Shown here: positions 350 to 40,800 of the stretch, in pieces | How positions within the stretch are numbered: position 1 is the first letter of the stretch | How the letters are laid out: the number at the start of each line of letters is the position of its first letter | Source: Liolophura sinensis | Taxonomy: Eukaryota; Mollusca; Polyplacophora; Chitonida; Chitonidae | Direction of reading: 5' to 3' | Length of the DNA stretch: 64,000 bases | Assembly (NCBI RefSeq): GCF_032854445.1 | Contig: NC_088301.1 | Coordinates: 13,140,281-13,204,280 of the forward strand | Position numbers and translations under genes: made by a program | Notes under the pieces: generated by a model | What the model was told of the DNA's origin: nothing | The model's input: the letters and a program-made list of their open reading frames with translations, nothing else | Databases searched by the model: none

Positions 350-3300
350 CCTGTAGAGAAGTGGTCTGTGAACAATGTATTGGAATGGATGGCCGCGCTT
401 AACCTCTATCGCTATGCTGATCTCTTCAAGACACAGAACATCAATGGAGCAGAGCTTCAAAAGATGACAGAGGAGAGACTTCGGGTAAGTCGGCACTCCT
501 GTTCTTATTTAAACTGTCCAGAGTTCAAATCCTGAAACTCACTCAACTGGTTTTGATTCCTTTTTGTGAAAAGATTGCAATGAATTTGTAATCAATATTA
601 TTTGTTTGGTTTCTGTTGAGAAAAGTTTCTGTCAAACTAATTCTGAAAACAACTTAGTGTTACTATTTCTTTTTGTATTGCCGTTGTTTTATGTATGATA
701 AATGTACTAATTATTAAACTGTGTTTAAGTTAAGTGTTAACTTAAGTTAAGTGTTAGGTGGATGTCGGTTGATATGAAAACAACAGACATATGTTGACAC
801 TTGCATAAGTGTGAACGGAAGGGTCTAGATGTTGATTTTCATGTCTGTCAAGAAGGTTGACTCTGCAACTAGTATGATATGGTAGAAATAAAAGTAAATA
901 TCTCTGAAATACTAGTGTATAAATTGGGAAAATGATAAAAATTTCGAAATTCTGAGTGCAGTTGACAAATTATTTCGTACTCTATAACCTTGCTTCGTCC
1001 ATCCCTTGATGTTTTTTGTGACTTGATGTGCATATCCTGTTTCTGTCACGCTATACCTGGTTAATTAGTTTGTACTAGAACAGGTGACATTGTCTGTAGT
1101 TATAACTTGAGCAAGTTTCATCTGTTTCAGTTCATAAAATCTGTATTCAGTGCAATAAAAGTTTTACCGTGTATTCCCAAGTACATGCAAGAAGCACATT
1201 TTCTCATAAATCAAGAACTTAAGTCTGGCACTGCAGAATTAACGAAGATTGATACAGAAGAACACTATGGCAAACTTCAGTTAAGGTGAAGCTGTTGCCA
1301 AGTATGTTTTCATGAGTTTAGTTGATCCTTAATGAACAGTTTTGTAATTTTGTACAAGTATGCAAGTATTTTTCTTTACTGTGCAAATTCAATTGATAAA
1401 AATTGATAATTTGAGAAGGAAAGAAAAATACATTTCTTTTCATGAGGTATCCTGAAACTGGACATGACTGACCTACATGTAGCACTGAATTAGTTCGATG
1501 TTTTCGGGGAGTGTGGGGGGCTGCATACTGATATTCAAATGTGCCATATGACTTTCCTGTACTGGGTTAACTTTGCATGGGCTGTTTTTGGCTTGAGCAG
1601 ACTTGAACTCTACCAAGGGTATCCATGTGGACAGACTTACATAATTAAAACTGGGTGAGAATATTGAGAGAGGTGACCTGGTTTTTGTGACTGGCTTCAG
1701 GATTGAATAGAGATTAGCATATCAATGGCCAGCACAGTGCCTAGAGTTGGTTTGGCTGAACTGCTTGACTGCCACACACAAGAGGTATGCATGTCTGCAA
1801 TAATCATGTCCTGTGGTTCCCCTACCAACTTTGCTCAGCCACATATAAAAGCTGGAATTTCTCAGTTGACAGTAGTTTAACCTACTGTCTGAGGATTGAA
1901 TCAGACTATTTCTTCAGTTCCAAGATGAAGAGTTTCCGCGCTTCCATGCGAAAATCTCTCCGAGTCTGTTGTCCCAAGTTGTTATCTTGCATCCAGCCGT
2001 GCATGGAATCTGTTTCTTGTACCTGCCAGGTGCAATTTAACTGTAGAAAGGTAAAATCATCTCCATCAAAACATGTGAACTGCACTGAGGCAAAATTTCT
2101 TTTGGGCGGGTAAAGATCTGAGTTTTTATCAAGACATAATTTCATCTCTTTATAGATGTGCAAATGTGAGGTGTACCAAGGTAAAATCTCCTGGAGATAT
2201 TTTGTCAGCCTTGAAAGTATTAAATTTCCAGCATTAGCCGAAAGAAATCTTCAGTGCACTAAGTAAGCCAGATAAAATTATCTGTGTGGTTGAGTATTAT
2301 TCATCATTGAGCCCTGGTTGACTTTCCCAGGCTGTCTAGGCTGTCAGACATGTGGAGATGTGGAGAGAGCCTGGTGCCCTCTCATGATGTATTTTCCCTA
2401 ATCTTGGCTAGCAATTAACCTCATTCTTACCACACACTATCTTAGTAACATTCAACTACTGGGCTAATTGATTAAAAAGTAGGAAAAGGCTGACAGTTCA
2501 GCAGTGGGGGGTGCCTTGGAGTACCTTGGAGGTTTGTAGTTCCCCTAATAGTTGACAGTCTCTAAATGCGTGTGCGCTTACAGCTTATGACTGTGGTAAA
2601 TGACCAAATATTTGGTTCAAAAAAACCCCACATATTTAGAGGCAAATAAATGTCATAAAATGTATTACTTTGGGTGTGGAAACTTACAATTTCCAAGCAA
2701 GTGTCACTACCCCTAAGATCAATAGAACTCTTAGGAGAATCCGGCCCAGTGCACACCTTTTGTCATCTACTGTACCTGTACATGGTTTAGTTCTGCAACT
2801 CAGAATAACAGGCTTTTATGATTCAATTAATTATTAAATGAATACTTGGTGTGGCAGAATGTTTGGCCATTTACTTGTTTTATCTGGACCTCCAAATAAA
2901 AATGACCTAAAATTGAGACCAGGCTGTCAAACAGTTGACCTTGTGGAAGAGGACAGTGAATTGTGCCATGGCTGTGGACCATGTCTGTAGATGGCCAGCT
3001 GAAAGCCAGAATTTTCTTTTATGCTGTACCATGACCGAGATGAGAAAAGCCTTCACTTCTTTGCATGATCAAGGTCATCTTTAACCTGGTTGTTTGCAAT
3101 GGCATATAATTGAGCGGTCTGTTGGGCATTTAAAGCATATGCCAGTATTATGTTGGTGCTTCGTCAAGCTTTTTATCTAGTTATCCTTCAACAAAACGTA
3201 TAACCTTGGTTGCCTTAGGTAATTCCCATTACACATAGTAACAATTCTGAGTTCAGAGAAGCATTAAAAAATAGCATTAAGAAAAAAAAAACTTTTACGG

Positions 3301-5064
3301 CTTGGCTTTTAAATCAGAATGTTTCATATCATTTTATCAAACAGTTTTTTTTTTTGGTGGATGGGATAAGATAAGTCATGTGCATTTAGAAGGATTCGCA
3401 TGTAGGCATCCTCCCTATGTATTCCTTTAATTTGTGTATAGTTCTTGTATTATAATTAAAGTTCTGATGTTTGAAATATATATGTATGAAGATATAAAAT
3501 TGCAGGACTTAGATAGGCTTGACCTCTAAGAATAATCAATTACTCTGCTTCAGGCACTGGCATTGTTTAGGCCTACATATACATGCAAGCAGTTTGTAAG
3601 TGTTACACATACACATTTTAAATGTTACACATACACATTTTAAATGTAACATTTACAAATAAATAAAATTGAAATAGAATAGATCAATGCATAATCACTC
3701 CTAAGCCAAAGTCAGAAACTACACATGTACTGTCTGTGCACTAACCTATAAAATATAACTGATAGTTTTGTGGTTCATTTTGTGATGTTTACTGTATGAA
3801 ATTTACAGCAGTGCAAACAATTTAGAGTGTATTGGAGACATTGACAATAAAACTTCAGTTTTTTCGCATTGTCTCTGTCTGGGTGTGAGGAAACCAAGTG
3901 TTTTATCACACAAATTGTTGCATATAAACAAGAGTGGATGTTCTTATTTTACAAAATGAAAGTGATGAAAAGTAGAGAAAGGGTTATGTGGATAGTCTCC
4001 AGGTCTTTGATCGTTCATTTCACTTGATTTTTGCGAATCATGTTAATATGCTTTGAAGTCGTACTGATTTGGGGTGGTGTTTTCATGTACCATTTCCTAA
4101 ACTGAGAACCGTGTGCAAGAATCGTTGACAGGCAAACCACAATGTTTGGCGTTCCAGTGATTATGGACCAGCTTTTGTAGAGTTCATTATGACCCTTTTG
4201 GATTAGTGACCACCATCAAGGAGTGGTGTAGCTTAGCAACTAACTGTAGGGATGAGCCACATCTGGCATTTCACATTCTTACCCTTTTTCCTCTTTAAGA
4301 CCATTTTAATCTGTGTATGTTCCAGCTGAGTAATACAGTTGGTGGGCAATAAGGCTATTTCTGGCCTCCAATACTGAAGACCAGGGATGGCAAGAGAGTT
4401 AACTCTAGTAGAACTGTAGTTTTCCATGCACACAGCTGGCTCTGTTTCATTAATAGTGATGAAGTATAGAGGTGTAGGTTCATGTGGGGAGAGGTTGTCT
4501 GTGGCACTAGGTCACTGGGTTAGTGGTTAGTCTGGACATAAATCTATGGTCAGGAACTCTGTCCAACATGGAGGCCAGCTCTTCATTTCAACATGTGTGT
4601 ATAGTGTACTTCCCTGAGTAGACAGAGAAGTAATAGGCCCAATTGAGTGGGTTTTCTCTTAGATTAAAGTGTATCAGACCTAAATGTGCAACTTGACAGA
4701 AGGTCTGCTGTGCACTAGTCAGTACTTTTTCTTGTTTGTTAAGCTCTTTTTTGTTAAGATACTGTTATGCGTATCTTCAGTTAAGCAGAAAATCAATGCG
4801 CGTTTTGGTCTCAGGATATCAGCACCACAGATTGTCAGTCATGCAGGCAGACAGCTGACATTTTTGTGGTTTGAGCCAGATATCTTTAAGCATGTTTCTT
4901 AATTCATACATGTAAAACTTACACATGCAATGCCAAGATTATTACCCTCAAATTATTTCATTGTATTTTGTTTTGTTTTTCAGCATATGGGTATTGAAGA
5001 TGACTTCCATCTGAAATCAATCCTAGTGTGTATAGATGAGTTGTGTGGACAAAATCCAGAAAAT
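350..5064 (+). CDS. PIK3R1: PIK3R exons encoding a SAM domain (350-484, 4984-5064)
   Basis: The first exon starts after a tttttcag acceptor and opens with [19 protein letters not shown]. This is the SAM-domain opening (W-x-x-x-x-V-x-x-W-x-x-x-x-x-L). It continues with [20 protein letters not shown] 4.5-kb intron follows. The second exon ([20 protein letters not shown]) supplies the closing SAM helix, with the usual L-x-x-M-G-I pattern. Both exons are in phase 0. The assignment to the p85 gene rests on unbroken strand and phase into the C1 and RhoGAP exons; I see no stop, poly(A) signal cluster or new start between them. SAM domains mediate protein-protein oligomerisation. The alternative is that this is the end of a separate upstream gene. 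Confidence 0.75.
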
Positions 5065-8000
5065 GTAAGATTCGTTTTCATTTTATTGAAATAAATCTAC
5101 CTGTATGCTCATTTTACTTTCAACTGGAACTACAATCTAATATATTTGTTTTCAAAATACTTCATGTCGTGGGAGTTTGAATAGCAATTAAATTTCAGAC
5201 TTATGAAATCTGTTGCAGTATAAATTTTTTCTGTGTTATTATACATCTCTCTTTCTGGATTTTCATTAAATAATTACCAAGTATTTGTCTCCTATCTTTG
5301 AGGTGCCCATTTTATTCTAAATGTTGTTTCTAGGTGATTTATTGACTGATAGCTAAATGTAGAATTTTAGGACCTCCATCTGTCCTGAGTCAAGTATAAC
5401 AAGACAAACCTAATTAATTGAAAGTTAAAGAGGTTCTTGTAAATGGCATCTTTATGTCTATATGAAAATGGCAGCTGTACTTTAAGTGGAATGTTCAGTG
5501 TTTTGTCTGCTATGCATTAGTGTTCTAAATACTTGTGAACCCATGCTGGCAAATTTGAAGAGGTTGTTGGAAGACATTTGTGGAAGAATCTCTCAGGAAT
5601 CTTTGTAAAATAGACCAGATTGAGTAGGGCTGGGCTGAACTGGACTGGACTGGATTGGACTTTTATGTGCATGGGGAATAAGAGCCCTACCCCCCCAAAC
5701 CATCAGCCTGGCTTTAGTACTTCACCACACAGGGCAGATAACAGTGTAACACTGACCGCTGCTTGACCCCTCTCAGCAGCTTTTTTTCTCTTCTCTCATC
5801 TCTCTCTCTCTCCCTCTCCCTCTTTTACAGAGACCCTATTCAACATGTCTTCCACCACCAGGCCAGTGTATAGACCCAATGGAAGGTATGTACATGCAAA
5901 AACAATGCCCCTGCCTTTGACCTTTGCGCACCCTTTTTGTGAACAGAATTTTTAGACCACTTCTAGGGAAGAGTTTATTTACACAGTAGATGCAGACTGA
6001 AAACACTCACACATTTCCCATTTCCTCTTGAAAGCGCATGTATTCACAGATCAGGTCACGGTCACAGTCTGCAGAAAATTAAACTGGACAACTTCACCCG
6101 ATTATTTTTAAGTACCTAGTGTGGCTGCCCTCTTGAAGATTAATACCTGTATGAGTATCCACCTGGCTTTAGGCAGTGTTTATTAATGTTAGAATATTTG
6201 TTTTCTTTTTGTTCTCGATCTTTCTCTTGACATGTTGGTGTGACGCACGCAGTGTTGATTTAGTTATATGTGCACCTCCCAGGCTGAAACAACAAAAATT
6301 ACCTGCTTTACATCCCTGTTGTATTCAGATCAGATTTGTTATCTGTAATTAAATCGTGACAACTCAGGTGGTTGGTATTCTGTAGATGATGTTGTGTGTA
6401 GAGATGGATAAAAGTTTGTCAACAATTGTATGGGTTTAGAATACCTAATGTCAGCTCTTAGTTACAGCTTAAAAGGGGGAGGTAATCCATTCTAGAAAGC
6501 ACCACTTGGCCAGGAGGTTGTGAACTCTGCCAGACAATCCCCAGCTGTCAACAAATGATACACCCAGTGGCATTGGTCACTAGAGCAAAAGTGCTGTCCA
6601 CCTATTGGTCCCTCTCTTCACTGGTGACCTAGTCTCTGATAGGTTGGCCTGACCTTTGATGATATGACCCAGTGCCCTACTGCTAAAAATTTTGATGGAT
6701 TTTCCCTACCAAGTTGAAAACTTTGTATTGTATTACCATTTGCTTAGGGTAAAGGCAGATATACATGTAGTACACCCATCCCCATCTCTCTCCACACCCT
6801 CTCAATATCATGCACCCCACGTTCTCGTACAAATTGTGTGTCCTTCTTAAAGAAGTTTAAGATTCCAGTGCTATCTATGGCTGTCATCCAGCAATTTAAC
6901 ACGCACTCCCGTTTCCAATTATCCATTCTTTACCAAGAAGCAGAGCTGCTCTAATTGGTGGCTCATCTGTATCAAGGCATGAGAACTATATACACACCAC
7001 ATATGCAGAAGTAGTGGAGTCTTTCTCCCAGTATTGTGCTAGAGGATGCGAGTTGGCTGTGTGGCTAGATCTTATGGGCCCTTCATTCCCATTTCACTAA
7101 TTAATTTGGTAATTAATCGCCAAACTGAAGTATTTATTTAATGGGTGTTTAATACTGCAATACAGAATACCACGCTTACTTTAATTCTTTTAATCTTTTT
7201 TTCATGTTCACAAGTTGTTATTTTGATTCAAAAAAAACCCGATGTAATTTTGTCTCCAACATCAAGTTACCAAGTGACCTAAAACAACTGTCTATTTCAT
7301 ATGGAAAATGGTTGAGGAATGAGGGTATGGGACAACAATCTGATTCTTCAGGTGAAACCCAGCAAGAATGGTTTTTTTCTTTCGATGCACGGTGCATGTA
7401 GGAATGTATGTCTTTTCTCTTTTCCAGGAACCTGTGGTCCGACCAACCATAATTTTGTAGAGTACAGTTTTTCATCGCTACAGCGTTGCCACTTGTGTGA
7501 TAAGTTCTTGTATGGCCTCATGAGACAAGGTTTACAGTGCAGGGGTATGTTGCTCATAATGAATGTTTTCGTTATCAGCTTTCTTACAATGACCAGTATC
7601 CGGTTTCCTCCTTCCATAATGCTGACCGTCTTGGTAGAAGTGAAATATTGTGGAGGATGGCGGAAAACACCATTCAAATAAATATATGAATAAATCAGTG
7701 ACTAGTGGAGGTGGTAATACATACAGTCACTTTATCTAATTTTTTTTTAATACTCAATAACTGTACATGTACTGCTCATAATAGTATCCTTTTCTGTTGG
7801 GGCCCATTTATGTAAAGAAAAAATGATATTTTTTTTTATAGGATTTCTTTGAACTCTGACATGGCTGTCTTTGTGAAAACACTTATTGTTACCTTTTACA
7901 GAATGTGGGCTCTGTTGCCACAGAGTATGTTCAACAACAAAACCAGCAGATTGCAGCTTCCCGAAATTCGAAAGACTGCGGCGTTCAAGCTTCTCTCAAA

Positions 8001-11000
8001 GTATGGAAAACATTTGGCTATTAATTGAACATATAACAAGTACAAGATTAAAGTGTTTAATAAGTTTTTTTAATGTGTATGTAAATTCGTAATGTTTTAT
8101 GGGCTTTTTTTGTCAGAGATGTTTTTATTTATGTGTATCAAAATGTTTGACTTATTTGTACAAAATCCCCTTTATAGCCCTAACTTGAGTTTCTTGTTTT
8201 AGATGCTGTTTTCGGCATGGAATTGTCAGAAAGCTTGTCAGCATCCAACCAGGAGGCTCCTGTCGTTATTCAGAAGTGTGTGGAACAAATCGAATCCTGG
8301 TGCTCAGAACACAGTGAGTAGTGGTTATATTAAACAGCTGCTGTTATTTGATCTAAAACTTGTCCATGACTGAGTTACTGTATATCACCTAAAATTTAAC
8401 ATTTTTATTTAGACACATTTTGCTTTGCTTCTGATTGATACATCCACTTCAGAGTTTTTTTGTGAAGTGTGATCAATGTTTTATCAGAAAAAGAAATGTG
8501 TTGGCAGTGGGTGTCATCTTAAGGCCTTCGATGCTTCTGAAAGTGCATTTTAACATACCAAAACTAAGGTGAAATGCACAACTGACTTTGCTTTGAGAGT
8601 TCTGTTTGTGTTTTGAGTTGGTTTTGAAGTATTTTGAGTAGATTTTGTTGTGATTTTTTACAGTTCAGAAGGATCAAAGTTTAGGGTATCTCATGATCGT
8701 TGCAGGGAAGTAATGGTTGAAAGGTCAAGCTTTCTAATTGAGAGTGCCTGAACAGCAGTACTAAGGGTAGAAGATTTTGCTGGAGAAAAAAAGCCTAGCT
8801 GAACTTCTTTTTGAAGTTCACAAACTGGTGACTTTTTCACATTGCTTTGAACTTTGAAGTCAGTTCATTTATCTCAAAGTGAATATATCAATCACCTGCA
8901 GAGGTTAACGAAGTCAGGTGGACCGTTAGCGAGCAGCAGGTGTCCCCCTCATGTTCCCCTGGGTGATAAGCAGAGCCAGAGAAGGTGTCCAGTAACAGGA
9001 ACAACCAGTGGCTAAACCCACACACACTGGTTAAATTAAGCTGTTCTAAAACCTGTTTCTGTGGAGAGCCTCAGGCCAAACCTTTAGACTAGATACAATT
9101 TAGGATTTAATTACTTAAGCCTCACCTCGGTCAGTAATGGACATTTAAAGTCTCTCTGTTAGTGGTTCATTATTTATAGGCAGGTGTGAAACCTAGGCTT
9201 GAGGCACAATTAGTCTTGATTGAATCAGTGTGGTTTAGGGTCTATGAATGAAAGTGAAATCTGGTCCTACACAGTGTAGTAATGTATTTCAGCAGGAGAA
9301 CATGATTGGACTGTCTCTCCATTTATGTGGGGTTTTTTTGTTTTTTTTGTTGTTTTGGTAGTAATGCTCTAAAAACCTTCAAACATGATCATAAAAACCT
9401 TCAGAATTTTTAGTCTGCCAGAATATTTCACACAAGATTCTGTGGAAAAGAAATATTTGTAAAATTAAAGAAAAAGTTCCGAAACATAATTTGCAACCAT
9501 CATGCAAAGATTACAAAGTTCTCTCCCTTGAAAGAAGAAAAAGCTATTAAATAGGATTTGAATCTGATTTGTTTATTTATGCTGTAATAAGTTGATGCCA
9601 ACAGTTGTGAATGAATAAATGCTGGATTATGGCTTAACGCCATATTACCTAAAGTATTACATATCCACTACTACTTTGGCACTGACAGCTGTGCTAGTCT
9701 GCCTTCTGTAAGGCAACACCTTGTTCCTGAACTCCCCTGGGGTTACATGATTGGCTCTGACTTCTTATTTCTCCTGAGTGACTACCCCCAGGGGATTGAT
9801 TGGAGAGTGGGGGGGAGCCAATTAAGTCACCCACTGGTGCAGTGAAATGTAACCTGTCTGTAATATTAGGAGGTCTTAATGAGGCCTAGTGGTCATTGGA
9901 TGGATAGTCCACTTATACATTTGTTCATTTAACAGCCTAACACTTCTGTAGCTTCATTTCTGTTGTACAGTAGCTCTTGGGTAAGATGTTGGCTTATAGC
10001 TTGAGGCAAATGGCAGGCCCCAGGATCATGAAGCTGTCTTTTTAAACTTCAGTCAAACTTGGTCTTAAATTCAAAATAGTATACTGTGGTAAAATTGTGA
10101 TTTACCTTAGGAATATTTCAGTACCCAAAGTTAATTCTTCATGATAAGATCCAATATTAGTGATTAGGTTCAAGTTCAGAAATGAATACCACGTGTTAAG
10201 ACTAAGTCTGACCTCTAGGACAGCATCTTGACCCAGAGGGCAGATCATGAATTCAGTAATTTGCTTATTTCTGTTTTTATAGTTTGGGGAGATATACATG
10301 TAACCTGGGGGAACTCTCTTTCTCGTGTGTGTGTGTGTACATTTTATTGCGATGTTCATTGAATTTCTTCAGTATGTTAAATGTTGTTTTTATTTCTGTT
10401 TTCCATGAAGCTGCGGACGCCTTCAACATCTATCGCTTCTCAGCTCCAACCGAAGCCATAAACCAGATCAAGGCTGCCTTCAACCAGAGTGAGTATACAT
10501 CACATGCTGCTTTCATGTGGTAAATCCTCAAAATCAGTGGCGTACATGGGAAGGTTTTCCAGCAACCTGCTGAATCACGCTTGTGGGCTTCCCCCTGAAC
10601 CCTGACTGAATTCCTCCCATTGTAATGCTGGCCTCTGTTGTAGAAATGAAATATTCTTGAGTACGGCATAAAACACCAATCGAATAAATTAATCAAAATC
10701 CATGTCTCTGCGAGGAAAACTGGGTACATGTAATTCTGATTCTCATAAATGTTTCCCAAATGAAAGGTTCAAGTATGCCGATGCATTTTCATAAAGTATT
10801 TAATTTGAAGTAGAAGAAAAAAAAATGACCAGACATCACTTGTCTTGGGCAAAACCTGGAGGAATACTTGTGAGTGTAGTATTGACAGTAAATGGAAGTA
10901 CATGAAACACTGACAGTTTTGCGTGTAAATTGTAACCCAATTGTATGTAGTCTCTTTAACCCTTGTGTATTCTGATTCATAGGTGATCCAGCAGAGCTTG

Positions 11001-14000
11001 ATCTCAGTGCATATGAAGTCCATCATATAGGGGGCGCTCTTAAACGTTATCTCAGAGAGTTGCCAAACCCAGTTATCCCAGTGGAATTCTATGAACAGTT
11101 GATAGAGGCAGCAAGTAAGTAAAGCTTAGCACATACGAAAGATCATCTGCTACGTGTACAGTTTCAAGACTTGTGTGGTCACATTGTGCTTATTCTAAGT
11201 AATGCACATGTACATGATTCATCGACTTAATTTTGTTTCAACTGCAAAGGCCATGCAAGTTTTTGGTGGCCTGGTACATGTATATTAAGCGCTGTGAACA
11301 AAAGATGGCAGATCTCTTTTACAAAACTTCGTAAATCAGTTTATCGTAACTTTTCTCATAAAAGATGTCATTTTATGGTAAGATTACCGAGATAGTCATT
11401 TATGAAAAAAGCTATGAGAAATGACTTAGCAGATTTTGTGTGAAAGTGGCCTCGGGCTACTTCTTTTAAGCTGGCAATCTCCATGCTACACAAATCAGGA
11501 AGGCATTATATTTGCTCATTCATTTTGTTCAAGCACCAGTGTTCCTCAATGGATGTTGAAGTGAATGGCTTGTTAATTACGATGAACCATGATATTTTGG
11601 CTGCTTTTCAAGCCGTGCCAGCAGCCTTCCTGCCCTTCCCATCAATTGACACTGTACACAAGTGGCACCCCTTGTATATACACCCACATGTATATTGCCC
11701 AGCTGATTATGAACACTCAAGCTGGCCATGACGCTGTAGATTCTCCCACTCTCACTGCTAATGAGGCCTTGATGACAAAAATAAGCAGTCGTTCACGCTT
11801 GTGCACCCCTTTATGCACTGTAACATCAGTTGAAGTCTTCAAACAATCTAGTGTGCATATCTGTTCACTGCATGTGAGAAAGTTTGTTAGTAACTTGCCA
11901 AAGTTTGGTGGTTTACTCTAATTGGTAGTTAATTCAACTATTGATAGGCTTTGTCATGGTTACTCTGTATTTTGTTGAACTTATTTGTTTGAGCATTTTT
12001 GTTAATTCCCTAAGTACTTTGTTCTGAATAAAGACATTTACGTATTGTGTTTTTTTTTTTTCTTTCTTTCTTTTATTTTAGGACGGAAAAACGAGACCGG
12101 TATTGTGGAAATCTGTAACAAACTCCCAACAGCACACAGAAAAACTCTGCTGTTCCTCATTGACCATTTTGTTCGCTTGTGGCGCATGTGGTACCAAAAT
12201 CACCGTGACAACCAAGCCGAAGCGTACAAGCTCGACAGGCTTTCGCATGTATTTTGTCATATCCTTCTCCGGCCACCATGGGAGAACATCATGTGAGTTT
12301 GATAGAACCTTCATATAGACATCAGTCCTGAAGCCTAACCTCTTTCTGACTTCAAAAGAATTTCATGAGATTCGTTTTTTTTTCTCCTGTATATATCTCT
12401 TCCCCTGTTCATGGAATGACGCATGTCCAGAAAAGTATACATGTAGGTCAGCAAAGTTTCATTTGACGTCAGTGTAGTAAATGATCTTAGAGATAACAAA
12501 GGTTTTGTAAATACTGAGTGATCAATGGCCAATTCATTTGATGGAAATTTGTGTTGTCTTCATATTTCAGTGATATAATCAACAATACCCAACTCCAGGT
12601 GGACATTTTTGAGGCTTTGATGAAAAGAAGTTTTAGCAGTGAGAAACCTCCACCTCCGCCAAGTAAGTCTGCTATAACATTCTGTCAGGTGCTGTAGTAC
12701 CAGGAGAAGATAAGTACATATTGGGTGGGGATATTGTGGGATAAAACAACAAAACATTTGAGTCTAAATCCTTTCAGACTGTTTTTACCAATTTTTGTGT
12801 TACATTTATCTTAAAGGAAGGTTTAAGGCTTGTTATTAAAGTCATACTTTTGTGTTGTATTTTTCCTTGTTTACAACACCAATAAACCGGACTACCTTCT
12901 GAATGAATGAGTATGGTATAGCGCCTCAGGTATATCGTGCCGAGGGCCTTCTTAGAAGTGAAAAATGTGGCATTTAAATCTCAGTCAGAGATTAATCTGT
13001 TAACCTGGTACCTTGTATTCAGTTGATCATTCTATTTTACCTCAGATGTTACATTGATGAGAAGACAAGTACTGTATCCCCACCTGAAGTTTGGCTTATG
13101 AAAATACACTTTCAGAGTACATAACGGCCTTAAAAGTCTACCTTTGTTACTAACACTTAGGATTCTAGGATTCTTCACAAAAAAAACCTTACACAAAGGA
13201 TGAATCACTAAGAAGCCAGCAAAATGTGTCACTTGAAGAAAGCTAAACTTCAGGTGTGATGCAATGTTTGCGGGTTGTATAGTGCCTTCATTTTCTCACT
13301 TCTTCCCTCCAGTCTAACAGTTGATGTTTTCCTCTCCCACAGGGCAACCTCCTGCAGGGCGACCAACTGACCACTTTGCTGACTCGCCCCTGCCAAATTC
13401 TGCACCCACCCCCTCAGGTACCAGATTAGAAGACTGTGATTGGTACTGGGGTGATATCAGCAGGTATGTCCACATCAGTCATTTTTTTTTTCCCTTTCCT
13501 TAAGAATAATTACAGATTGATATACAGAGTAAAAAGGCATATTGTTTTGTTTTTGTAACATCCTGTCATTTTTTGAAGTCCTGTTAAATAATAATCTCAA
13601 GAATGCATTGATGGTTTCATTTTTCTTTATAGGGAAGAAGTCAATGAGCGGTTGAAAGATCAACCTGACGGGACATTTTTAGTACGGGACGCTTCAACTA
13701 AGACAGACTACACCCTGACGTTAAGGTATGTAACAACATGCTACAAACTGTACCTTGTAGATACATCTGCTCTCACTCCAGCAGTTTAAACGGTCTTAAT
13801 ATTTGATGAAACCCCTTTTCTTCCATCAACACTTTGCCCATATCTTTGTTATATGTTGAAAAATTAGGCGGTAAGGTGGTTTTCCATGTTCACTTCAGTT
13901 TTCTTCACCAGTTGTACTAGTCCTGGATGTTTGAGTGTAAAATTCTTGAGCATGGCACTGTGCAAGGATCAGATATATAGTAAGTGGAACCGCATGTTTG

Positions 14001-17000
14001 TAGAAGAGGTGGATGTGTCAGGTATTTCCAAATTTGCCAGGGTCTTTTCTGTCTCGTTCTATTTCCCACCCCTATCCTACCCCTCTTGTTGAGCCTCATC
14101 TGCCCCAGGTCATTGATTAGCTTTAGGGTCAGTCCAGTTTCTGTGTAAACAGAGCAGCATATGTAGAGGTATGCCCCCCCAAGCTGCTGAAGGTACAAAT
14201 AGCTTAAACACCTGTGACATGAGGTCATGAATGGAAACTGCCAGGGGAGGGGGGGGGGTGTTTCCTGTAGCTGTAACTGTTTGTTTATTCTGTGACTTAA
14301 AATACATGACCTGTGGGTGTATATTATCTAAGATTTTTTTTCCTGGACTGTTATATACATATACCTCATGATTCCTTGAACAAATGGTAATCCCTTTGTC
14401 TACTTCCTATGCCACTGATCTACATACATACTTACATTGGTATGTCTGGGCAATCTTCAGAGGGTTTTATTTCTATTGTCTGCAGGAAAGGAGGCAGTAA
14501 CAAATTGATCAGGATTTTCCACCATAACGGAAAATACGGTTTCGTGGAGCCTTACACATTCAACTCAGTGGTGGAGCTAGTGGAGTACTACAGACATAAT
14601 TCGCTGGCCATCTACAACCGCACATTAGACATCAAACTAGAGTTCCCAGTGAGAAGGAAAATACCGGTAAGTCTGTGTGCTCGCATTTCTGAAATCAGTG
14701 CCTTGGCACTTAGTTTGGACATTATTTTGATTACTTGAAACGTATCAGTTGTACTACTGGATGTCAGATGGTTGTGTTCTTTGAAAAATCCTATACATGT
14801 TAACTGTCAGAGGTTAAGATGTATATTCTTTAAGAGGGCTCGGAAGATGTAGATCACATGATCACCCTAGTGTGGGTGAAAACAAAATGGTCACCCAATG
14901 TGGAAGCGTAGGGAAAATGGCCCATGTTTTCCACTCGGTCAGTGATCTGGTTGTACAAAAAACCAGCATGTAAGCTCTACAGAAGACTTATCTCGAAAGC
15001 TAGAAATTATTCAAATCAGCTTTCCTATGCTACAACATTACAAGGACTTCCTTTTTTTTCTCTTTTTCCTCGCAGTTTGTTACTAAGGAGATCACATGGT
15101 CTTTATCTTCCAGCCTCTCTTACAGAATGTCTTAATGTAAGCAGGGTATTAGTAAAGTGCTTGAGAATCACAATTGCAAAGCTATGTAAAGGTTGCCCCA
15201 TTGTTCAGGTGGATGGATGGATGTTTTTAGTATTCTGATAGGTTGCAATCTTTTTTGTAGCCCCCTAGTGGTGTAGATCCGCCAGACGTGAAGGAGATGT
15301 TGAGTAAACTAAAGGAGATGAACCAGCTGTACTTACAGAGGAGTGTGGAGTACGATCGGCTATACGACCACCACTCGAAAACCGCTCAGGTAGGATTTCT
15401 CCTGTTCTGCTCGTTAACCATGTAGAGTGTGGGTCCAAATACAAAAGTATGTGTGTCTGCATGTTCATGCACATTCGATTGTTATGGCTAGTCATTTAGT
15501 GGCCAAAGGTCAGTGGTTTTCTCCAGGCCTTCTAATCTCCTCCACCCATTTCACTGTGTGCTGTCTTTCCATGTGAAATATTCTGGAATAGGGTGTTAAA
15601 AGCCAAAAAGTCAGTCAAAGCCAATAACTGTAGCTGACCATCCATGTTGCTGTTCCACAGGAGTTACAACTGAAGCACCAGGCCCTGGATGCGTTCAAGG
15701 AGACGGTGGCAGTGTTTGAGGATCAGATCTTGCTGCACGAGAAATCACACAGAGATGCGTTTCCTAATGAAATACAAAAGTAAGACAATTTTACACACAT
15801 TTGCTTTATATTCTCTTTTTCATTTCTCAAAGAGCTTGTCGCAGAATTGACCTTCTGCTTGCATGGAATGGGCACGTGCTAAGGGGAAGCAATTTATCCC
15901 ATGCCCTGCATTTTGTTTTCGTTGAAGCATTGCCATCTTGTTATGAAGTATATGTGTTTGTGAATAAGACGTAAAGTTGAATCAGTCAAGTTATGAGATG
16001 GTTAGGCAATATATACCCAGAATGTAAAAATTCGTGTTGATTAGCAATATCTCGGGGATGAATTCAGTTGTTTAAAATATGGATTAATGAAACTTTAATG
16101 TTGTGCAGTTATTGTGCCTTTGTACTGATGTTGTAACTGTACACCTTACAAACATTAAAATTGTTTGTTTTTGGTGTTGTATTTACATATTGTTATGTTT
16201 CATCTTGTAGGTTACACGAAAATTTTGAACTCCTGAAAACTAGGCTGATGACTATTTGCGAGAGTCGAGAGGCATTGGAATTGGAAATCCAAAAACAGTC
16301 CATTCAAATCGACAGTTTATAAGTGAAATGAATAGCACAAAACCAGAAATCAAGCGGTTATATAGGGAGAGAGAAAGATACAAGAAGTAAGTTCAGTCAT
16401 AGCTAATCCTTGCAGTTCACCATAAACTTGGTCCAAAAAACGCTTCAGTTGTTCGTCATCATTCGGAATACTTCTGGAAACCAGTAAATTTAAAAGCAAG
16501 AAAGTAATTTAAACTAGTTTGTTTACCAAAAAAAAAAAAAAAAAAACCTTGTAGTTTAAATGTAGTTACTGCTGTAATCTATAATTGACATGTTTTCAGT
16601 GAACATGAATCTTTTTGCTAAATCCAAGGCTTATCTATTCACAGAATGCTTTTGGATAATGGCTATTCACAAGATCTTCTGGAAGAAATATTAGAAGGAA
16701 AGAGCACTGAGGAAAGGTATTGATTACTGAATTGATTTTACAGACTGCAACTTTTACTTTATACATTTTTCTGTATGGTGACTGTGTGTGTATGAGTGTG
16801 TGTGCCGAGAGAAGGATGCTGCAGGGACTTTCAAAATTTGTTCATCTTGTGGTAGAGATGCAACATCAGAAGAACAGGTGTCATTTGTTTTTCATTAAGG
16901 CACTAACTTGTGTGAAATAAATGCAAAGTAAAATGATTGAAAAGGTCTTGGCAATAATGTATTTCTGAAAACAGGTTTGTAACTGAAAATTTATGCTCCT

Positions 17001-17711
17001 ACATGTTCCTTTCTTAGACTGCAGTTGTTCTCGCTTGACACATTCCCAGTTGTGTGTTTGTGCTTTTTAACAGTTACGGAGTAGCCATGTAACATATATC
17101 TGTAGAATGCCTATGTGTTTTTGTCTTGTTAGCCCTCACTGGTTGCCGCATGAAGACTCGCGGACGTGGTTAGTAGAGTGCGATCGTAATACTGCTGAGA
17201 TGAAGCTGATGGGACAGAAAGATGGAACGTTCCTGATCAGGCCCAGGGATGGTGACCATGTTTTATCTATTGTGTAAGTTATCTGTCTTTTAATTAATCA
17301 AATTTACTTAATTTAAGTAATTTTTTACTGAATGAACGATTCAGTCAATGTTTAGATATGAGTGAAAAATTATGTCTGTACAACTTGGGTATTTTGACTG
17401 TTTCAATGAATAATTTGAAAAAAAAAAAAGAAAATGTAAATGTTTTGGTGTGATTATTGAAAATTCTGTAACCTGTTCTGCTCCTATGTTTCAGGGTACG
17501 GGGGCAGGTAGGACACTGTAAGATCTACAAGCGAGAGACGGGCTATGGGTTTGCAGACCCATACTTCATACACAGATCATTGGTTGACCTTGTCGTTCAC
17601 TACAGTCAAACCTCGCTGGCAGAACACAACGAGAGCCTTGACCTGAAGCTAAGCTACCCTGTCAATTATTATGCGCAGGATGACAACATCTACACTCGCA
17701 TGCAGCATTGA
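350..17711 (+). CDS. PIK3R1: PI3-kinase regulatory subunit (p85-type), 5'-partial, 19 exons visible
   Basis: This is the class IA phosphoinositide 3-kinase regulatory subunit, which holds p110 through its iSH2 coiled coil and docks on phosphotyrosine through two SH2 domains. Exons: 350-484, 4984-5064, 5831-5885, 7428-7544, 7902-8000, 8203-8313, 10411-10488, 10983-11114, 12082-12292, 12571-12662, 13343-13463, 13633-13725, 14486-14666, 15261-15389, 15661-15779, 16211-16386, 16645-16716, 17133-17273, 17495-17711. Phases agree throughout except for one missing base in exon 16211-16386; with it restored the exons sum to a multiple of three and give about 786 residues. Order: SAM (1-75), C1 (98-147), RhoGAP/BH (about 165-365), proline-rich linker, nSH2 (about 402-500), iSH2 (503-665), cSH2 (about 670-770). 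Vertebrate p85 has an SH3 at its N-terminus; none is visible here but the 5' end is outside the window. Which vertebrate paralogue it matches cannot be decided, so the symbol is family-level. Confidence 0.93.
485..4983 (+). other. PIK3R intron between the two SAM exons
   Basis: This AT-rich intron has gtaagt and ttttcag ends. No supported exon or RNA gene is visible inside. About 2560-2720 resembles the unnamed repeat family also seen at 24405-24560 and 55400-55600 (shared 'aggcaaataaatgtcataaaatgtattacttt' type of core). A 25-bp direct duplication (ttacacatacacattttaaatg) occurs at about 3600-3650. Confidence 0.6.
7428..8000 (+). CDS. PIK3R1: PIK3R exons encoding a C1 zinc-finger domain (7428-7544, 7902-8000)
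   Basis: The joined exons give an exact C1 metal-binding pattern: H-x12-C-x2-C-x13-C-x2-C-x4-H-x2-C-x7-C. It begins at the His of NHNFVEYSF and ends at the Cys of KPADC. The [10 protein letters not shown] segment keeps the G and Q found in phorbol-ester/diacylglycerol-binding C1 domains. The proline typical of the first binding loop is replaced by SLQRC, so lipid binding is uncertain. The intron falls between two zinc ligands, in phase 1. The domain ends in a basic [11 protein letters not shown] linker that leads to the RhoGAP exons. The short exon 5831-5885 upstream (CLPPPGQ) links the SAM to the C1. Confidence 0.88.
7590..7700 (+). mobile_element. SINE family A, 3'-end fragment
   Basis: A fragment with the family signature: tttcctccttccataatgct, gaagtgaaatattgtggagg and caccattcaaataaatat. 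It lies in a PIK3R intron just after the first C1 exon. The 5' tRNA-related head is missing. Confidence 0.65.
8203..12662 (+). CDS. PIK3R1: PIK3R exons encoding the RhoGAP/BH domain (five exons)
   Basis: Exons 8203-8313, 10411-10488, 10983-11114, 12082-12292 and 12571-12662 encode the BCR-homology/RhoGAP fold. VFGMEL opens it. FNIYRFS corresponds to the arginine-finger loop, where the IYR arginine is retained. [17 protein letters not shown] is the conserved signature helix. [16 protein letters not shown] and [17 protein letters not shown] follow. In vertebrate p85 this domain binds Rac/Cdc42 and has weak or disputed GAP activity. Here the arginine and the K-R-Y-L-R-E-L-P segment are both present, which would be compatible with activity, but this is inference. 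The domain ends in a SSEKPPPPP run like the proline-rich segments that flank the p85 BH domain. Confidence 0.9.
8314..10410 (+). other. PIK3R intron, no gene seen
   Basis: This 2.1-kb intron lies between two RhoGAP exons. I see no coding segment of the family, no clear full-length mobile element and no RNA gene. The shorter introns at 5065-5830, 5886-7427, 10489-10982, 11115-12081, 12663-13342, 13726-14485, 14667-15260, 15780-16210 and 16717-17132 are likewise non-coding, apart from the SINE pieces listed separately. Confidence 0.5.
10538..10696 (+). mobile_element. SINE family A, 3' part
   Basis: The copy carries the cataccaggt-like middle, 'ttgtaatgctggcctctgtt', 'gaaatattcttgagtacggc' and 'ataaaacaccaatcgaataa'. 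It sits inside a PIK3R RhoGAP intron. Diverged and 5'-truncated. Confidence 0.7.
13343..14666 (+). CDS. PIK3R1: PIK3R exons encoding the N-terminal SH2 domain
   Basis: Exon 13343-13463 carries a proline-rich linker and then WYWGDISR. Exon 13633-13725 carries [19 protein letters not shown] with the FLVR phosphotyrosine-binding arginine. Exon 14486-14666 carries [14 protein letters not shown], then the [20 protein letters not shown] segment. The order and intron positions match an nSH2 of p85, with the same WYWG opening as in vertebrates. All key residues are intact, so pYxxM binding is expected. Confidence 0.93.
15261..16716 (+). CDS. PIK3R1: PIK3R exons encoding the inter-SH2 coiled coil, with a frame break
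   Basis: Exons 15261-15389, 15661-15779, 16211-16386 and 16645-16716 encode the p110-binding coiled coil. It starts [20 protein letters not shown] and continues [20 protein letters not shown]. In exon 16211-16386 the frame runs into TAA at 16320-16322 after [12 protein letters not shown]. The next frame immediately reads [20 protein letters not shown], which matches the 'MNSIKPDLIQL' stretch of the vertebrate iSH2, and its phase fits the next exon ([20 protein letters not shown]). One added base in the TTT at 16316-16318 repairs the frame. Confidence 0.9.
15485..15610 (+). repeat. SINE-like family B fragment
   Basis: Contains 'gtggccaaaggtcagtggtt', 'ctcctccacccatttcactg' and 'gtgaaatattctggaatagg' followed by 'gtgttaaaa'. 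It shares the 'ttgccaaaggtcagtggttt' core with the copies at 42015-42115, 42700-42835 and 63500-63650. This family resembles family A at its 3' end only. Confidence 0.55.
16316..16322 (+). other. Single-base frame break in the iSH2 exon (probable missing T)
   Basis: Upstream frame: gac agt tta taa. Downstream homologous frame: ata agt gaa atg aat. They are joined if TTT were TTTT. The downstream exons 16645-16716, 17133-17273 and 17495-17711 are all intact SH2-coding sequence, with splice phases that require the extra base. The sequence itself cannot distinguish an assembly error in a homopolymer from a true allele. A fixed null is unlikely because all flanking exons are well preserved. Confidence 0.85.
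17133..17711 (+). CDS. PIK3R1: PIK3R exons encoding the C-terminal SH2 domain and stop
   Basis: Exon 17133-17273 starts [19 protein letters not shown] and contains [16 protein letters not shown], with the FLIR arginine. Exon 17495-17711 contains [19 protein letters not shown] and [20 protein letters not shown]. The protein ends in [13 protein letters not shown] and a TGA at 17709-17711, the position where vertebrate p85 also ends shortly after its cSH2. Confidence 0.94.
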
Positions 17712-17864
17712 TGAGCCAACAGCCTGGAGGTTTTCAAACACAATGTCTGAACCACACAAGATTAGTAGGTTGACCAGTTCCAGGGTGAGTGAATAGGGCT
17801 GAGTCACGTTGTTCAGGGGCATGCAACTTGTTAGCGGCTGGTGTGTGTGGTCAGAGTACAACTT

Positions 17865-18214
17865 ACAGCCAGCTGGCCTGCTCGGCAGAATAGAGCTTAC
17901 AGCCAGTTAGCCTTCTCGGCAGAATACAGCTTACAGCCAGTTGGCCTCCTCGGCAGAATACAGCTTACATCCAGTTGGCCTTATCAGTAGAATATAGCTT
18001 GCATCCAGTTGGCCTGCTTGGCAGAATACAGCTTAGTCAGTTGGCCTTCACAGCAGAATACAGCTTACAGCCAGTTGGCCTCCTCGGCAGAATACAGCTT
18101 ACAGCCAGTTGGCCTCCTCGGCAGAATACAAGTTACAGCCAGCTTGCCTGCTCTGCAAAATACAGATTTCAGCCAGTTGGCCTCTTTGACAGAATACAAG
18201 TTACAGCCAGTTGG
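17865..18214 (+). repeat. 34-bp minisatellite in the PIK3R 3' UTR
   Basis: About ten imperfect copies of a unit that starts acagccagttggcctcctcg and ends gcagaatacagctt. Most units are exactly 34 bp, one is 32 bp, and they end at acagccagttgg. Because 34 is not a multiple of three, several frames remain open through it; the 97- and 72-residue frames there are by-products, not proteins. Confidence 0.93.
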
Positions 18215-20995: not shown

Positions 20996-21706
20996 ACATG
21001 TACCTGTGTGATATAGGTTGTGACCAAATGTACCTGTGTGATATAGGTTGATTGTGACCAAATGTACTGCGTGATATAGGTTGTGACCACATGTACCTGT
21101 GTGATATAGGTTGATTGTGACCACATGTACCTGTGTGATATAGGTTGATTGTGACCACATGTACCTGTGTGATGTAGGTTGATTGTGACCACATGTACCT
21201 GCGTGATATCGGTTGATTGTGACCACATGTACCTGTGTGATATCGGTTGATTGTGACCACATGTACCTGCGTGATATCGGTTGATTGTGACCACATGTAC
21301 CTGCGTGATATCGGTTGATTGTGACCACATGTACCTGCGTGATATCGGTTGATTGTGACCACATGTACCTGCGTGATATCGGTTGATTGTGACCACATGT
21401 ACCTGCGTGGTGTAGGTTGATTGTGACCACGTACCCGTGTGATATCGGTTGATTGTGACCACATGTACCCGAGTGATTTAGGTTGATTGTGGCCACATGT
21501 ACCTGTGTGATATAGGTTGATTGTGACCACATGTATCTGCGTGGTGTAGGTTGATTGTGACCACATGTACCTGCGTGGTGTAGGTTGATTGTGACCACAT
21601 GTACCTGTGTGATATAGGTTGATTGTGACCACATGTACCTGTGTGATATAGGTTGATTGTGACCACATGTACCTGTATGGTGTAGGTTGATTGTAACTAC
21701 ATGTAC
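20996..21706. repeat. 34-bp minisatellite, about 21 copies
   Basis: The unit reads ttgattgtgaccacatgtac then ctgtgtgatatagg. Copies are very similar: the main variants are ctgcgtgatatcgg in the middle block (about 21200-21400) and gtggtgtagg in a few others. The minus strand has frames of 308, 224 and 157 codons through it. A 34-bp unit without stops in any frame stays open in all three frames, so these are artefacts of the array. Confidence 0.95.
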
Positions 21707-37841: not shown

Positions 37842-40800
37842 ATGGGGTCGATTGTGGGAAAAGCCATGGATGAAAACATGAAGAAAAACCAGCAATTCAT
37901 GATGAAAAACCAAGAAATTATGGTAGGTATGCAGTGGTCAGTTATGTTATATTGATATATAGTACAACAAAAGCCATATATTGATGAAGAAACCAACTAT
38001 CATTTCACAGGGTCTTGGTTTTACTCCAGGCACTCCACCCTTAGAACTAACTGCTGTCATATAGCCTAATTGAGCGTAAATTTCATCCATGACCAACTTG
38101 CCCATTTTTTTCTGAATTTGAGAGTTTTGTTGATTTTAGAAACATGTGTTGAGGTTTGCTTGGAACGTGGGATTATATTCTAGTGGAAAATTGTAAGTTT
38201 AAGAACCAAAAATAATATTTTGTGACATTTATTTGCTTCACAAAATGCTCTTTTGTGGGCGAAATTTTACGTCATTTAGGGTAATTGAGAAATTATTGAG
38301 AACAGCATTATAAATGAATCAGATATATAAATAAATGAATAAGTAATGTAATGTCCATGTTTCAGCTGGTCAGACAAATCCACATGCAGAACCAGATGAG
38401 GCAGAGAATGGCGGCAATGCAGATGGCAAGAGCCAGGGATATGTTTCAGTGGTTTGGGGCCTTTTACGCAGTGTTTGCTCCAATAGCTATAGCAGGGTAT
38501 GGTGGCCAGAAATGCAAGATTTCTATACACACACTGAGAGTAGATTTTAAATTACATAAAAGTTCTTACATACAAATTCATACCAGTTGAAAGAGATAGG
38601 TTGTGTTCGTCTTCCTAACAGTGATATCAAAAAGGTCCAGTAGAGCTTCAGTATGCAAAGGGAGATAACTTTTGTATACATGACCTTGAGTCATTGTTAC
38701 ATGTACATCCAAAACAGATTGTAGCGCAACATCTAAAATATTACAATGTTTTGGTTTTTACTGTAACATTGTGCCATCTTTAAGGGAAAAGACCTTTAAA
38801 AATTGAAGTCGGCGTCACCAAACAGACCACTTAAAACTGTGCATAAATATACTTTCAGGTCTTTTTTTAGATTTTTGTGAAAAAGAGTTTAAGGCATTCG
38901 AAACTTTGAATTCTAGGGTGGGCTTTATGGACCATACTATCAGTTTAGGAGTTTAGGAACTGTGACGTCACAGGAAGTTTTTCCAACTCTAATCACAACA
39001 CTGAATGTTAGAATAACTCTTTTTATCCATGAGTAAAAGTCTAATGAAATAATGTTCCCAAGAATTCCTTCCTTCTGGTGAACATCAGGAAAAAACGGTG
39101 ATGTGACATTAGAGTTGCTAGATGTCGTCAGTGTGGCTCATTAAGCCCACCATAGTGGTCAAATATACTGAATTCCAAGAGAAATGCGAATGGGAGAAAT
39201 AGTATAAACTGTAAATGAGCAAAAGCCAGTTGACTTTATTTAAACATATTTCTCTTACACAACAAGACAATAACTCATTTAATAGCTCATATGGTGTTTA
39301 TTCTTCTGATTGAATGAATATGGGAGAACTTATTTAATTTTGGGCTTTTGGGAATTGTTTTTCTGATGGAATAAAAATTAATGTCAATAACGAGTGTGAC
39401 CCCCATTAGGGTCAACAACAGCAGCACACCTTCTACCCATGCTGTTGAAGAGACTGTGGATGAACCTCCAAGGAATGTTATTGTAAGTGTCAACGATGCT
39501 TTGTTGCAATTGTTGCAAGGTAACTGGCTGCATGAGTTAATGGCGAATGCGGAATTCAATTTCATCCTAGAGGTGCTCGATAGGAGTTAAATCCGGACCT
39601 AATGCTGGCCAATGCATCGTCTGGATGCCATTGTTCAGCAGAAAAGTCAGTGTTAATCTTGCGGTATATGGTCTTGCATTATCTTGCTGTAGAACAAGAT
39701 TGCGTCTTCGAATAAAAAATGGAATGACTACAGGCCTCAACACTTCATTGATGTAGCTCTGCGCCATGACGCCTGTACCACGTCCCCATTCATTGTTTTG
39801 GAAGATCACAGGCGAAACATGAGGTCCCCAGCTGATTGCCCCCCCAAATCATGACGAAAGGCCCTCCCCAACGGTCATTCTCCAAGACACATTGATCACT
39901 GAACCTTTCATCTCTACATCGCCATACCTTCACTTTGCCGTCCACTGTGTTGATGCAAAACGACATTGATCCGAAAAGACGATATTCTGCCATTGCCCAT
40001 TGTGCTAGTTCCGATAGCCTGCTGCCCAGTTAAGTCTAACGCGTCTGTGACGTAGCGTCAAACGTGAACCAACATAAGGTCGAACGCACCCTCGAGTCGG
40101 CAATGTACATTATTGGTGCTGATGGGTCGGTTCGTTGTTCCAACTGTGTTTTGAGCTGTAGTGGCTGCTTGCAGGAACTGATTCCCACGGTGGGAATTGA
40201 CAGTGAAGCGGTGTTGACGGTTTGATGTCACACGAGGTCGTCCGCTCCGAGCATGGTCATTAACGGTGTTTGTCTGCTGGTAGCCGTCAAGCAGTCTGTA
40301 TATGGTGGACTGATGAGTACCATAATGCCTGGCGACACGTGAGACGTTCCAACCTGCCGCATTGTTGCCGATGGCTCTTTGACGTTAATCAGCACTCAGA
40401 AGTGGCATGGTCACTGTTGCATCAAATGCAACACTGTTGCATCAAAATGCAAATGCAACAGTCCTGCGATTTATGCTCCTCAAGAAGCATTCTCAAACCA
40501 AGAATCTCGTGAAAAGAAAATGCATTCAACTCAACTAGCAAACACTTCACGAGAAATATGAAAATTAAAATCAGTACAATTGGTGCCACCTGACACCAAG
40601 GTTGCTGCCTTTGCGAAAGATACTCATCTTTAAAATTGAAGAACACCCATTACATATCTACACACTTTTGATTACTCAGAATGTTCTTCCAAATTTGACA
40701 TGGGAAAAATTTGCGTTTCTTTTGGAATTCAGTATATTTGAATGCTCTTACACAGAGCACTCTTAAAAAAAATCTGAAAAAATGCCTAAAATTATTTTTT

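Follow-up and report, generated by a model that had tools for sequence, protein, structure and literature searches.

The available passages of Philippon et al. 2015 (PMC4617754) report a C1 domain (PF00130) and SAM_1/SAM_2 in the class IA regulatory subunits of Mollusca, among other groups, the molluscan domain being mentioned in the singular as 'a C1'; in Cnidaria and Ichthyosporea, the same passages give the regulatory subunit a C1 along with an additional SH2. In its accessible sections, a 2025 paper (PMC12817958) describes Penaeus vannamei PI3Kp85-alpha as carrying SAM at the N-terminus plus two C1 domains, all of them missing from human p85. Vertebrate p85-alpha self-associates via SH3-proline-motif and RhoGAP (BH) contacts, according to the excerpted text of PMC7458397. 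The textbook SH3-RhoGAP-SH2-iSH2-SH2 order is one animal p85 version among others and, as far as these passages go, this has been in print since 2015 (PMC4617754).

Chimaerins (PDB 1xa6, 3cxl) carry C1 directly before RhoGAP, as was also observed at the locus described here. These are SH2-C1-RhoGAP proteins, not known to have an iSH2 or p110-binding part. CDD holds C1_PIK3R-like_rpt1 and C1_PIK3R-like_rpt2, which we take to be cd20829 and cd20830, the C1 domains of uncharacterised PIK3R-like proteins with two C1 repeats; a literature search with these names found nothing relevant.

Here, we analyzed a window of 64,000 nt from the mollusc Liolophura sinensis, for which an earlier note had proposed a p85 PI3K subunit with SAM and C1 ahead of RhoGAP, asking whether lophotrochozoans offered a precedent. 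For Mollusca they do in the passages cited (PMC4617754), and the shrimp protein is similar (PMC12817958, accessible sections); the SAM-C1 p85 architecture is real but already known, being published for molluscan and shrimp p85.

Results

Gene Structure and Identity

Nineteen plus-strand exons were delineated at 350-17711 (Table 1), so the gene extends well beyond the 350-12662 given in the earlier note. Pfam was run on the two encoded pieces, before and after a frame break in iSH2, the first being 621 residues when spliced, and matches to all six domains were found in order. The 18 introns are all GT-AG, with GT at 18/18 donors, AG at 19/19 acceptors and compatible exon phases, and exons 1-15 (1754 nt) contained no stops in the coding frame, whereas the remaining frames held 32 and 36. 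Leave-one-out acceptor scores, obtained with matrices built from this same gene, were uneven: exons 1-4 scored between 8.7 and 14.2, but exon 7 only 1.0 and exon 17 only 0.8.

Table 1. Predicted exons of the p85-like gene in the window.
Exon	Encoded part	Positions	Strand	Basis and remarks
1 (first of window)	SAM, first part	350..484	+	Splice sites, frame, Pfam SAM_1; acceptor start, so not the gene's first exon
2	SAM, second part	4984..5064	+	Frame, Pfam, splice sites
3	55-nt linker, SAM (phase 0) to C1 (phase 1)	5831..5885	+	Frame, splice scores
4	C1, first part	7428..7544	+	Frame, Pfam, C1 alignment, splice sites
5	C1, second part	7902..8000	+	Frame, Pfam, C1 alignment, splice sites
6	RhoGAP start	8203..8313	+	Frame, Pfam, splice sites
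7	RhoGAP, arginine-finger region IYRFSA	10411..10488	+	Frame, Pfam, PDB match; weak acceptor score
8	RhoGAP	10983..11114	+	Frame, Pfam, splice sites
9	RhoGAP	12082..12292	+	Frame, Pfam, splice sites
10	RhoGAP end and proline-rich linker	12571..12662	+	Frame, PDB match, splice sites
11	Linker and N-terminal SH2 start	13343..13463	+	Frame, Pfam, PDB match, splice sites
12	N-terminal SH2, FLVR motif	13633..13725	+	Frame, Pfam, PDB match, splice sites
13	N-terminal SH2	14486..14666	+	Frame, Pfam, PDB match, splice sites
14	iSH2 coiled coil	15261..15389	+	Frame, Pfam, PDB match, splice sites
15	iSH2	15661..15779	+	Frame, Pfam, PDB match, splice sites
16	iSH2, one frame break	16211..16386	+	Frame, stop counts, splice sites
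17	iSH2 end	16645..16716	+	Frame, Pfam, splice sites; weak scores (acceptor 0.8, donor 3.4)
18	C-terminal SH2, FLIR motif	17133..17273	+	Frame, Pfam, splice sites
19	C-terminal SH2, stop codon TGA	17495..17711	+	Frame, Pfam, splice sites

As in p85/PIK3R, two SH2 domains flank a p110-binding iSH2 coil (Pfam and the p85-alpha match, with the frame break in an iSH2 exon), and RhoGAP (E = 2.3e-25, residues 182-307 of the first piece) lies ahead of the first SH2; SAM and C1 are N-terminal to RhoGAP in a single predicted frame, as in the SAM/C1-bearing p85 of molluscs and shrimp. We are highly confident that the locus is one gene for an animal class IA PI3-kinase regulatory subunit (PIK3R, p85) of the SAM-C1-RhoGAP-SH2-iSH2-SH2 form. 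This assignment is backed by the domain order, the splice sites and the frame open to the iSH2 break, all as predicted from genomic DNA, and by the SH2-iSH2 match to p85-alpha; the Pfam order, this match and the predicted splicing bear out the subunit proposed earlier.

The best PDB matches to the RhoGAP-SH2-iSH2 part were full-length p85-alpha chains (E from 2.3e-93 to 4.8e-93, residues 18-454 of 456). The p85-alpha entries compared (PIK3R1; PDB 8h36 and 7myn among others, presumably human chains) have the same RhoGAP, N-terminal SH2 (71/99 aligned columns identical), iSH2 and C-terminal SH2. Vertebrate p85-alpha has SH3 and, unlike the window gene, neither SAM nor C1, as the earlier note had stated and in agreement with the human comparison in the accessible sections of the shrimp paper (PMC12817958). 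The molluscan class IA regulatory subunit in the passages of PMC4617754 has the same RhoGAP-SH2-p110-binding-SH2 core plus C1 and SAM, a comparison by presence and not by SAM/C1 order. Penaeus vannamei PI3Kp85-alpha shares the N-terminal SAM and C1, with two C1 domains in the shrimp versus one inside the window (PMC12817958, same sections); neither Pfam nor a motif scan detected a second C1 in the window, and in the scan just 7448-7516 was hit, the first half of the C1 described above.

The first exon in the window opens at a splice acceptor, and the N-terminus of the gene therefore lies outside it; SH3 or a further C1 may be encoded upstream of 350. Within the window, no SH3 was detected by Pfam in the encoded pieces or by a crude motif in six frames. 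An NCBIfam search of the SAM-C1 part gave 0 families, and a tRNA scan of the window gave 0. Pattern matches to relatives were confirmed in 0/6 cases in viral_contigs and 0/10 in genome_contigs, neither collection being built from animal genomes.

The Join between SAM and C1

SAM_1 was matched at residues 4-65 of the first piece (E = 8.9e-13). With phase 0 at the end of exon 2 and phase 1 at the start of exon 4, the two exons need an adaptor between them. Exon 3 was initially chosen by eye, and proved to be the only open acceptor-donor pair in 5065-7427 at its own leave-one-out scores. At the same scores, control scans found 0 phase 0-to-1 pairs in 46,000 nt of the plus strand and 64,000 nt of the minus strand, and one acceptor-donor pair in other phases in these 110 kb. 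The passage from SAM through exon 3 to C1 is a predicted join.

It could be argued that there are two genes here, an upstream SAM gene and a PIK3R gene starting at the C1 exon, with shared phase by chance. The closest solved relatives of the SAM are liprin-beta-1, CNK2 and neurabin, none of them a RhoGAP protein, and the spacing is wide, with 4.5 kb between the SAM exons, 0.77 kb from there to exon 3 and 1.54 kb on to exon 4; moreover, an in-frame ATG precedes exon 4 within the open frame 7316-7681. However, exon 3 bridges the phase mismatch, and no other open candidate in the gap reaches its scores; with 12.3, the acceptor ahead of 7428 ranks second among the 19; and the passages available from both sources describe SAM as well as C1 in class IA regulatory subunits of molluscs (PMC4617754) and in shrimp p85 (PMC12817958). 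We consider two genes highly improbable. Within a single gene, the ATG may provide an extra, shorter start before the C1 exon.

The C1 Domain and Diacylglycerol

C1_1 was matched at residues 98-147 of the first piece (E = 4.3e-11). The zinc pattern had been called perfect and it is, since the spacing H-x12-C-x2-C-x13-C-x2-C-x4-H-x2-C-x7-C is exact, with all eight zinc ligands, and occurred once in the spliced 621-residue piece and in 0/20,000 shuffles of it. A six-frame shuffle control was set aside as uninformative: an intron interrupts the C1 coding sequence, and the unspliced window itself lacks the full pattern.

The best PDB matches to this domain were the C1 domains of Munc13-1, PKC-beta and beta2-chimaerin, all of which are diacylglycerol-responsive. 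The beta2-chimaerin C1 has 21/50 positions identical to it. In diacylglycerol-sensitive C1 domains, Pro241, Gly253, Gln257 and Gly258 (PKC-delta numbering) are the four strictly conserved non-zinc residues, according to the excerpted text of PMC9110374. Three of these four are present here, Gly253, Gln257 and Gly258, along with Tyr and Leu at positions 252 and 254, and the full set is lacking, with Leu at the Pro241 position; Arg stands at that of Phe243, the consensus aromatic. These observations bear on the idea that the domain is a full diacylglycerol sensor, recruiting PI3K to membranes once phospholipase C is activated, in the manner of chimaerins or PKC. The zinc ligands, the retained residues and the closest PDB relatives speak for it, but each of the three C1 domains compared retains this Pro together with an aromatic residue at position 243, and the loss of the conserved diacylglycerol-contacting Pro makes such sensing doubtful. 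We regard a full sensor as unlikely, and the proposal that C1 ties PI3K to diacylglycerol, although compatible with the zinc fold and the three retained residues, is weakened by the two substitutions. Judging from its residues, this C1 probably responds weakly or not at all to diacylglycerol, and the predicted loss of sensing is a simple, testable question.

The SH2-iSH2-SH2 Region and the Frame Break

In the first piece, the N-terminal SH2 was matched at residues 404-477 (E = 6.1e-18) and iSH2 at residues 511-615 (E = 9.1e-26); the second piece contained SH2 (E = 2.4e-12) and the iSH2 tail (6.5e-6), the latter at 26.3 bits, under the Pfam cut-off of 31.5. Within exon 16, the first frame stops at 16320, and the second, back by 16310, runs to the stop at 17711. 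The exon chain is therefore not literally unbroken: the continuity of phases claimed from SAM to the C-terminal SH2 holds at the SAM-C1-RhoGAP join, the frame staying open from exon 1 until partway through exon 16, and fails at iSH2.

If the break were a true mutation, this would be a damaged copy, its protein stopping within iSH2 and lacking the C-terminal SH2. The stop, with the other frame already present, and the weak splice scores of exon 17 right after it would be in line with that; against it, no other lesion was found across the 19 exons, and the second frame extends across three more exons with GT-AG introns, which encode the iSH2 tail and a Pfam-supported SH2 and end in a stop codon. 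We find a damaged copy very unlikely; a single indel in the assembly would be the simpler reading.

Discussion

From what is known of the family, the iSH2 coil would hold and restrain the catalytic subunit p110, which both SH2 domains would free on binding phosphotyrosine motifs at receptors. With less certainty, the SAM-C1-RhoGAP block would take on the tasks of the vertebrate SH3 and RhoGAP, through weak self-association and through contacts with membranes or small GTPases. In it, SAM would serve as an assembly part and the zinc-folded C1 as a membrane or protein contact, and these roles of SAM and C1 are proposed tentatively, at somewhat below even chance. In the literature searched, no functional test of SAM or C1 in an invertebrate p85 was found, and the shrimp paper, in its accessible sections, speculates (PMC12817958).

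A bolder proposal, which we hold to be improbable as a whole, is that the p85 N-terminus here forms a membrane-assembly module, in which SAM oligomers replace the SH3-proline contact and C1, its diacylglycerol gating lost via Leu, is a constitutive acidic-lipid or protein contact. If so, p85 clustering and not SH3 ligands would tune PI3K output, and the vertebrate N-terminus would be a replacement for an older C1-RhoGAP block. The C1 with extra SH2 in Cnidaria and Ichthyosporea (PMC4617754, available passages) would agree with an ancestral block of the chimaerin-like order SH2-C1-RhoGAP; the RhoGAP scores obtained here do not single out chimaerins.

The gene itself differs from chimaerins in having SAM before C1, SH2-iSH2-SH2 after RhoGAP, and no conserved C1 Pro; a chimaerin identity was rejected, since the Pfam order conflicts with the chimaerin layout. 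A chimaerin origin of the p85 RhoGAP was dropped as well, its basis being pairwise bit scores, which do not resolve ancestry: against PDB, the window RhoGAP alone matched beta2-chimaerin with 70.2 bits (top match), ARHGAP15 with 69.3 and p85-alpha with 45.9, and the p85-alpha RhoGAP matched myosin-IXb with 58.8 bits, ARHGAP15 with 57.4, N-chimaerin with 56.8 and p85-beta with 46.6.

Gene Model and Family Identity

The PIK3R gene was rebuilt from the sequence by pairing exons at GT-AG sites, and the final model comprises 19 exons; all 18 of its donors are GT and all 19 of its acceptors are AG. An acceptor stands at the start of the first window exon, indicating that the gene start lies outside the window. 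The acceptor splice scores were uneven, with 1.0 for exon 7 and 0.8 for exon 17 versus 8.7 to 14.2 for exons 1-4. Within exons 1-15 (1754 nt), no stop was found in the coding frame, whereas the two alternative frames contain 32 and 36; the coding frame stays open into exon 16, giving a first piece of 621 residues. The unbroken exon phases claimed in an earlier note therefore hold up to the iSH2 exon, where the first frame stops at 16320 and a second, iSH2-like frame, resumed by 16310, continues as far as the stop codon at 17711, a stretch of 168 residues. The assembly, taken as it stands, shows only this interruption of the frame in an otherwise intact gene, and in the simplest reading the interruption is probably an assembly indel.

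Pfam analysis of the first piece detected SAM_1 (8.9e-13), C1_1 (4.3e-11), RhoGAP (2.3e-25), SH2 (6.1e-18) and iSH2 (9.1e-26), and the second piece contained SH2 (2.4e-12) and an iSH2 tail that, at 6.5e-6, was below the iSH2 cut-off. When RhoGAP-SH2-iSH2 was searched against the PDB as a single query, the top match was full-length p85-alpha (E 2.3e-93), and the N-terminal SH2 was identical to that of p85-alpha in 71 of 99 aligned columns. Judged by its sequence, the gene thus is a class IA PI3K regulatory subunit, in agreement with the proposal of a p85 with SAM and C1 ahead of RhoGAP.

The SAM-C1 Join

The join between SAM and C1 is the step where two separate genes could be hidden. Direct splicing of exon 2, whose end is in phase 0, to exon 4, whose start is in phase 1, would not keep the frame; the phase shift is provided by exon 3. 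Using splice matrices built from the other exons of the same gene, with exon 3's own scores as thresholds, exon 3 was the sole open acceptor-donor pair in 5065-7427, which argues against two genes. In a control at these thresholds, neither positions 18001-64000 of the + strand nor the complete - strand of the window contained a phase 0-to-1 pair; the control gave one pair in other phases, on the - strand. Since the matrices came from the same gene, and exon 3 was first chosen by eye and is open in a second phase as well, this result is support rather than proof. CDD has entries for C1 in PIK3R-like proteins. In the portions of Philippon et al. 2015 (PMC4617754) available to us, class IA regulatory subunits carry C1 (PF00130) in Mollusca, Cnidaria and Ichthyosporea, and matches to SAM_1 or SAM_2 are reported for Mollusca, Arthropoda and Choanoflagellida, with one such protein per metazoan lineage except Euteleostomi and Chondrichthyes; in the portions of a 2025 J Virol paper (PMC12817958) consulted, a shrimp p85 has an N-terminal SAM and two C1 domains. 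These molluscan and shrimp lists also speak against two genes, and because of them the case for SAM and C1 in one predicted gene is strong. For the same reason, as far as these excerpts go, the architecture is already known, which answers, for Mollusca, the earlier question of whether the combination had been described in lophotrochozoans; the window gene is one more member of this kind, a real but ordinary finding. Going by the distribution of SAM and C1 in Philippon et al., its source is most likely an invertebrate.

Properties of the N-Terminal Domains

The closest solved relatives of the SAM domain in the PDB were liprin-beta-1, CNK2 (23 of 68 columns identical) and neurabin. Vertebrate p85-alpha forms N-terminal dimers via SH3-proline-motif and RhoGAP (BH) contacts, according to the part of PMC7458397 consulted, and by analogy the SAM could take over this dimerisation role.

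The C1 zinc pattern proved as perfect as first noticed, with eight exactly spaced ligands; when the spliced piece was shuffled 20,000 times, this spacing arose 0 times. The closest solved C1 domains were those of Munc13-1, PKC-beta (C1B) and beta2-chimaerin, with 20, 18 and 21 identities, respectively, over 50 positions. In the accessible text of Katti et al. 2022 (PMC9110374), the consensus of diacylglycerol-sensitive C1 domains has Pro241, Gly253, Gln257 and Gly258 as strictly conserved non-zinc residues and Phe243 as an aromatic cage residue; at these positions, the window C1 has Leu, Gly, Gln, Gly and Arg, respectively. The Leu and Arg make the suggested diacylglycerol gating doubtful; contact with acidic lipids, also suggested, or with protein would be equally probable.

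In the RhoGAP domain, IYRFSA, the arginine-finger region, aligned with the chimaerin Arg. Active RhoGAPs have a catalytic Asn; this position is Arg in the window RhoGAP, Asn in chimaerin and Val in p85-alpha, and we infer that Rho-GAP activity would be weak or absent. The RhoGAP alone scored higher with beta2-chimaerin and ARHGAP15 than with p85-alpha; as p85-beta is likewise outscored by several other RhoGAPs when p85-alpha is the query, this is no argument against the PIK3R family.

Other Features of the Window

Features of the window, with positions and strand
Feature	Positions	Strand	Observation
PIK3R gene	350-17711	+	19 exons
PIK3R exon 3	5831-5885	+	55 nt
PIK3R exon 16	16211-16386	+	iSH2, frame break
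Tandem array	17852-18214		34-bp unit, 10.7 copies, shortly past PIK3R stop codon
Minisatellite	20996-21706		34-bp unit, 21.2 copies
Exon-like ORF	38339-38590	+	DUF2368 (PF10166), 4.5e-15
Exon-like ORF	42736-43011	+	DUF2368 (PF10166), 7.3e-4, below cut-off
Further ORFs	39567-40029	-	ORF 39567-39848, no Pfam match
Helix-turn-helix ORF	40058-40384	-	HTH_29, HTH_23
Minisatellite	51041-52312		76-bp unit, 16.8 copies
ORF	54683-55048	-	No Pfam match at 0.01, alone
ORF	57149-57445	-	No Pfam match at 0.01, alone
ORF	58187-58426	-	Fanconi anaemia group C protein (PF02106), 9.9e-10
ORF	59454-59801	-	No Pfam match at 0.01, alone

The DUF2368 ORFs resemble a PLGRKT-type plasminogen receptor gene, and by eye the helix-turn-helix ORF and those beside it suggest a decayed Tc1/mariner-type element. 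The Fanconi anaemia group C match could perhaps extend over about 48000-60000 on the - strand, and the three unmatched ORFs there may be exons of that gene. The tandem array probably lies in the PIK3R 3' UTR, and the long open frames over the two minisatellites look like repeat artefacts.
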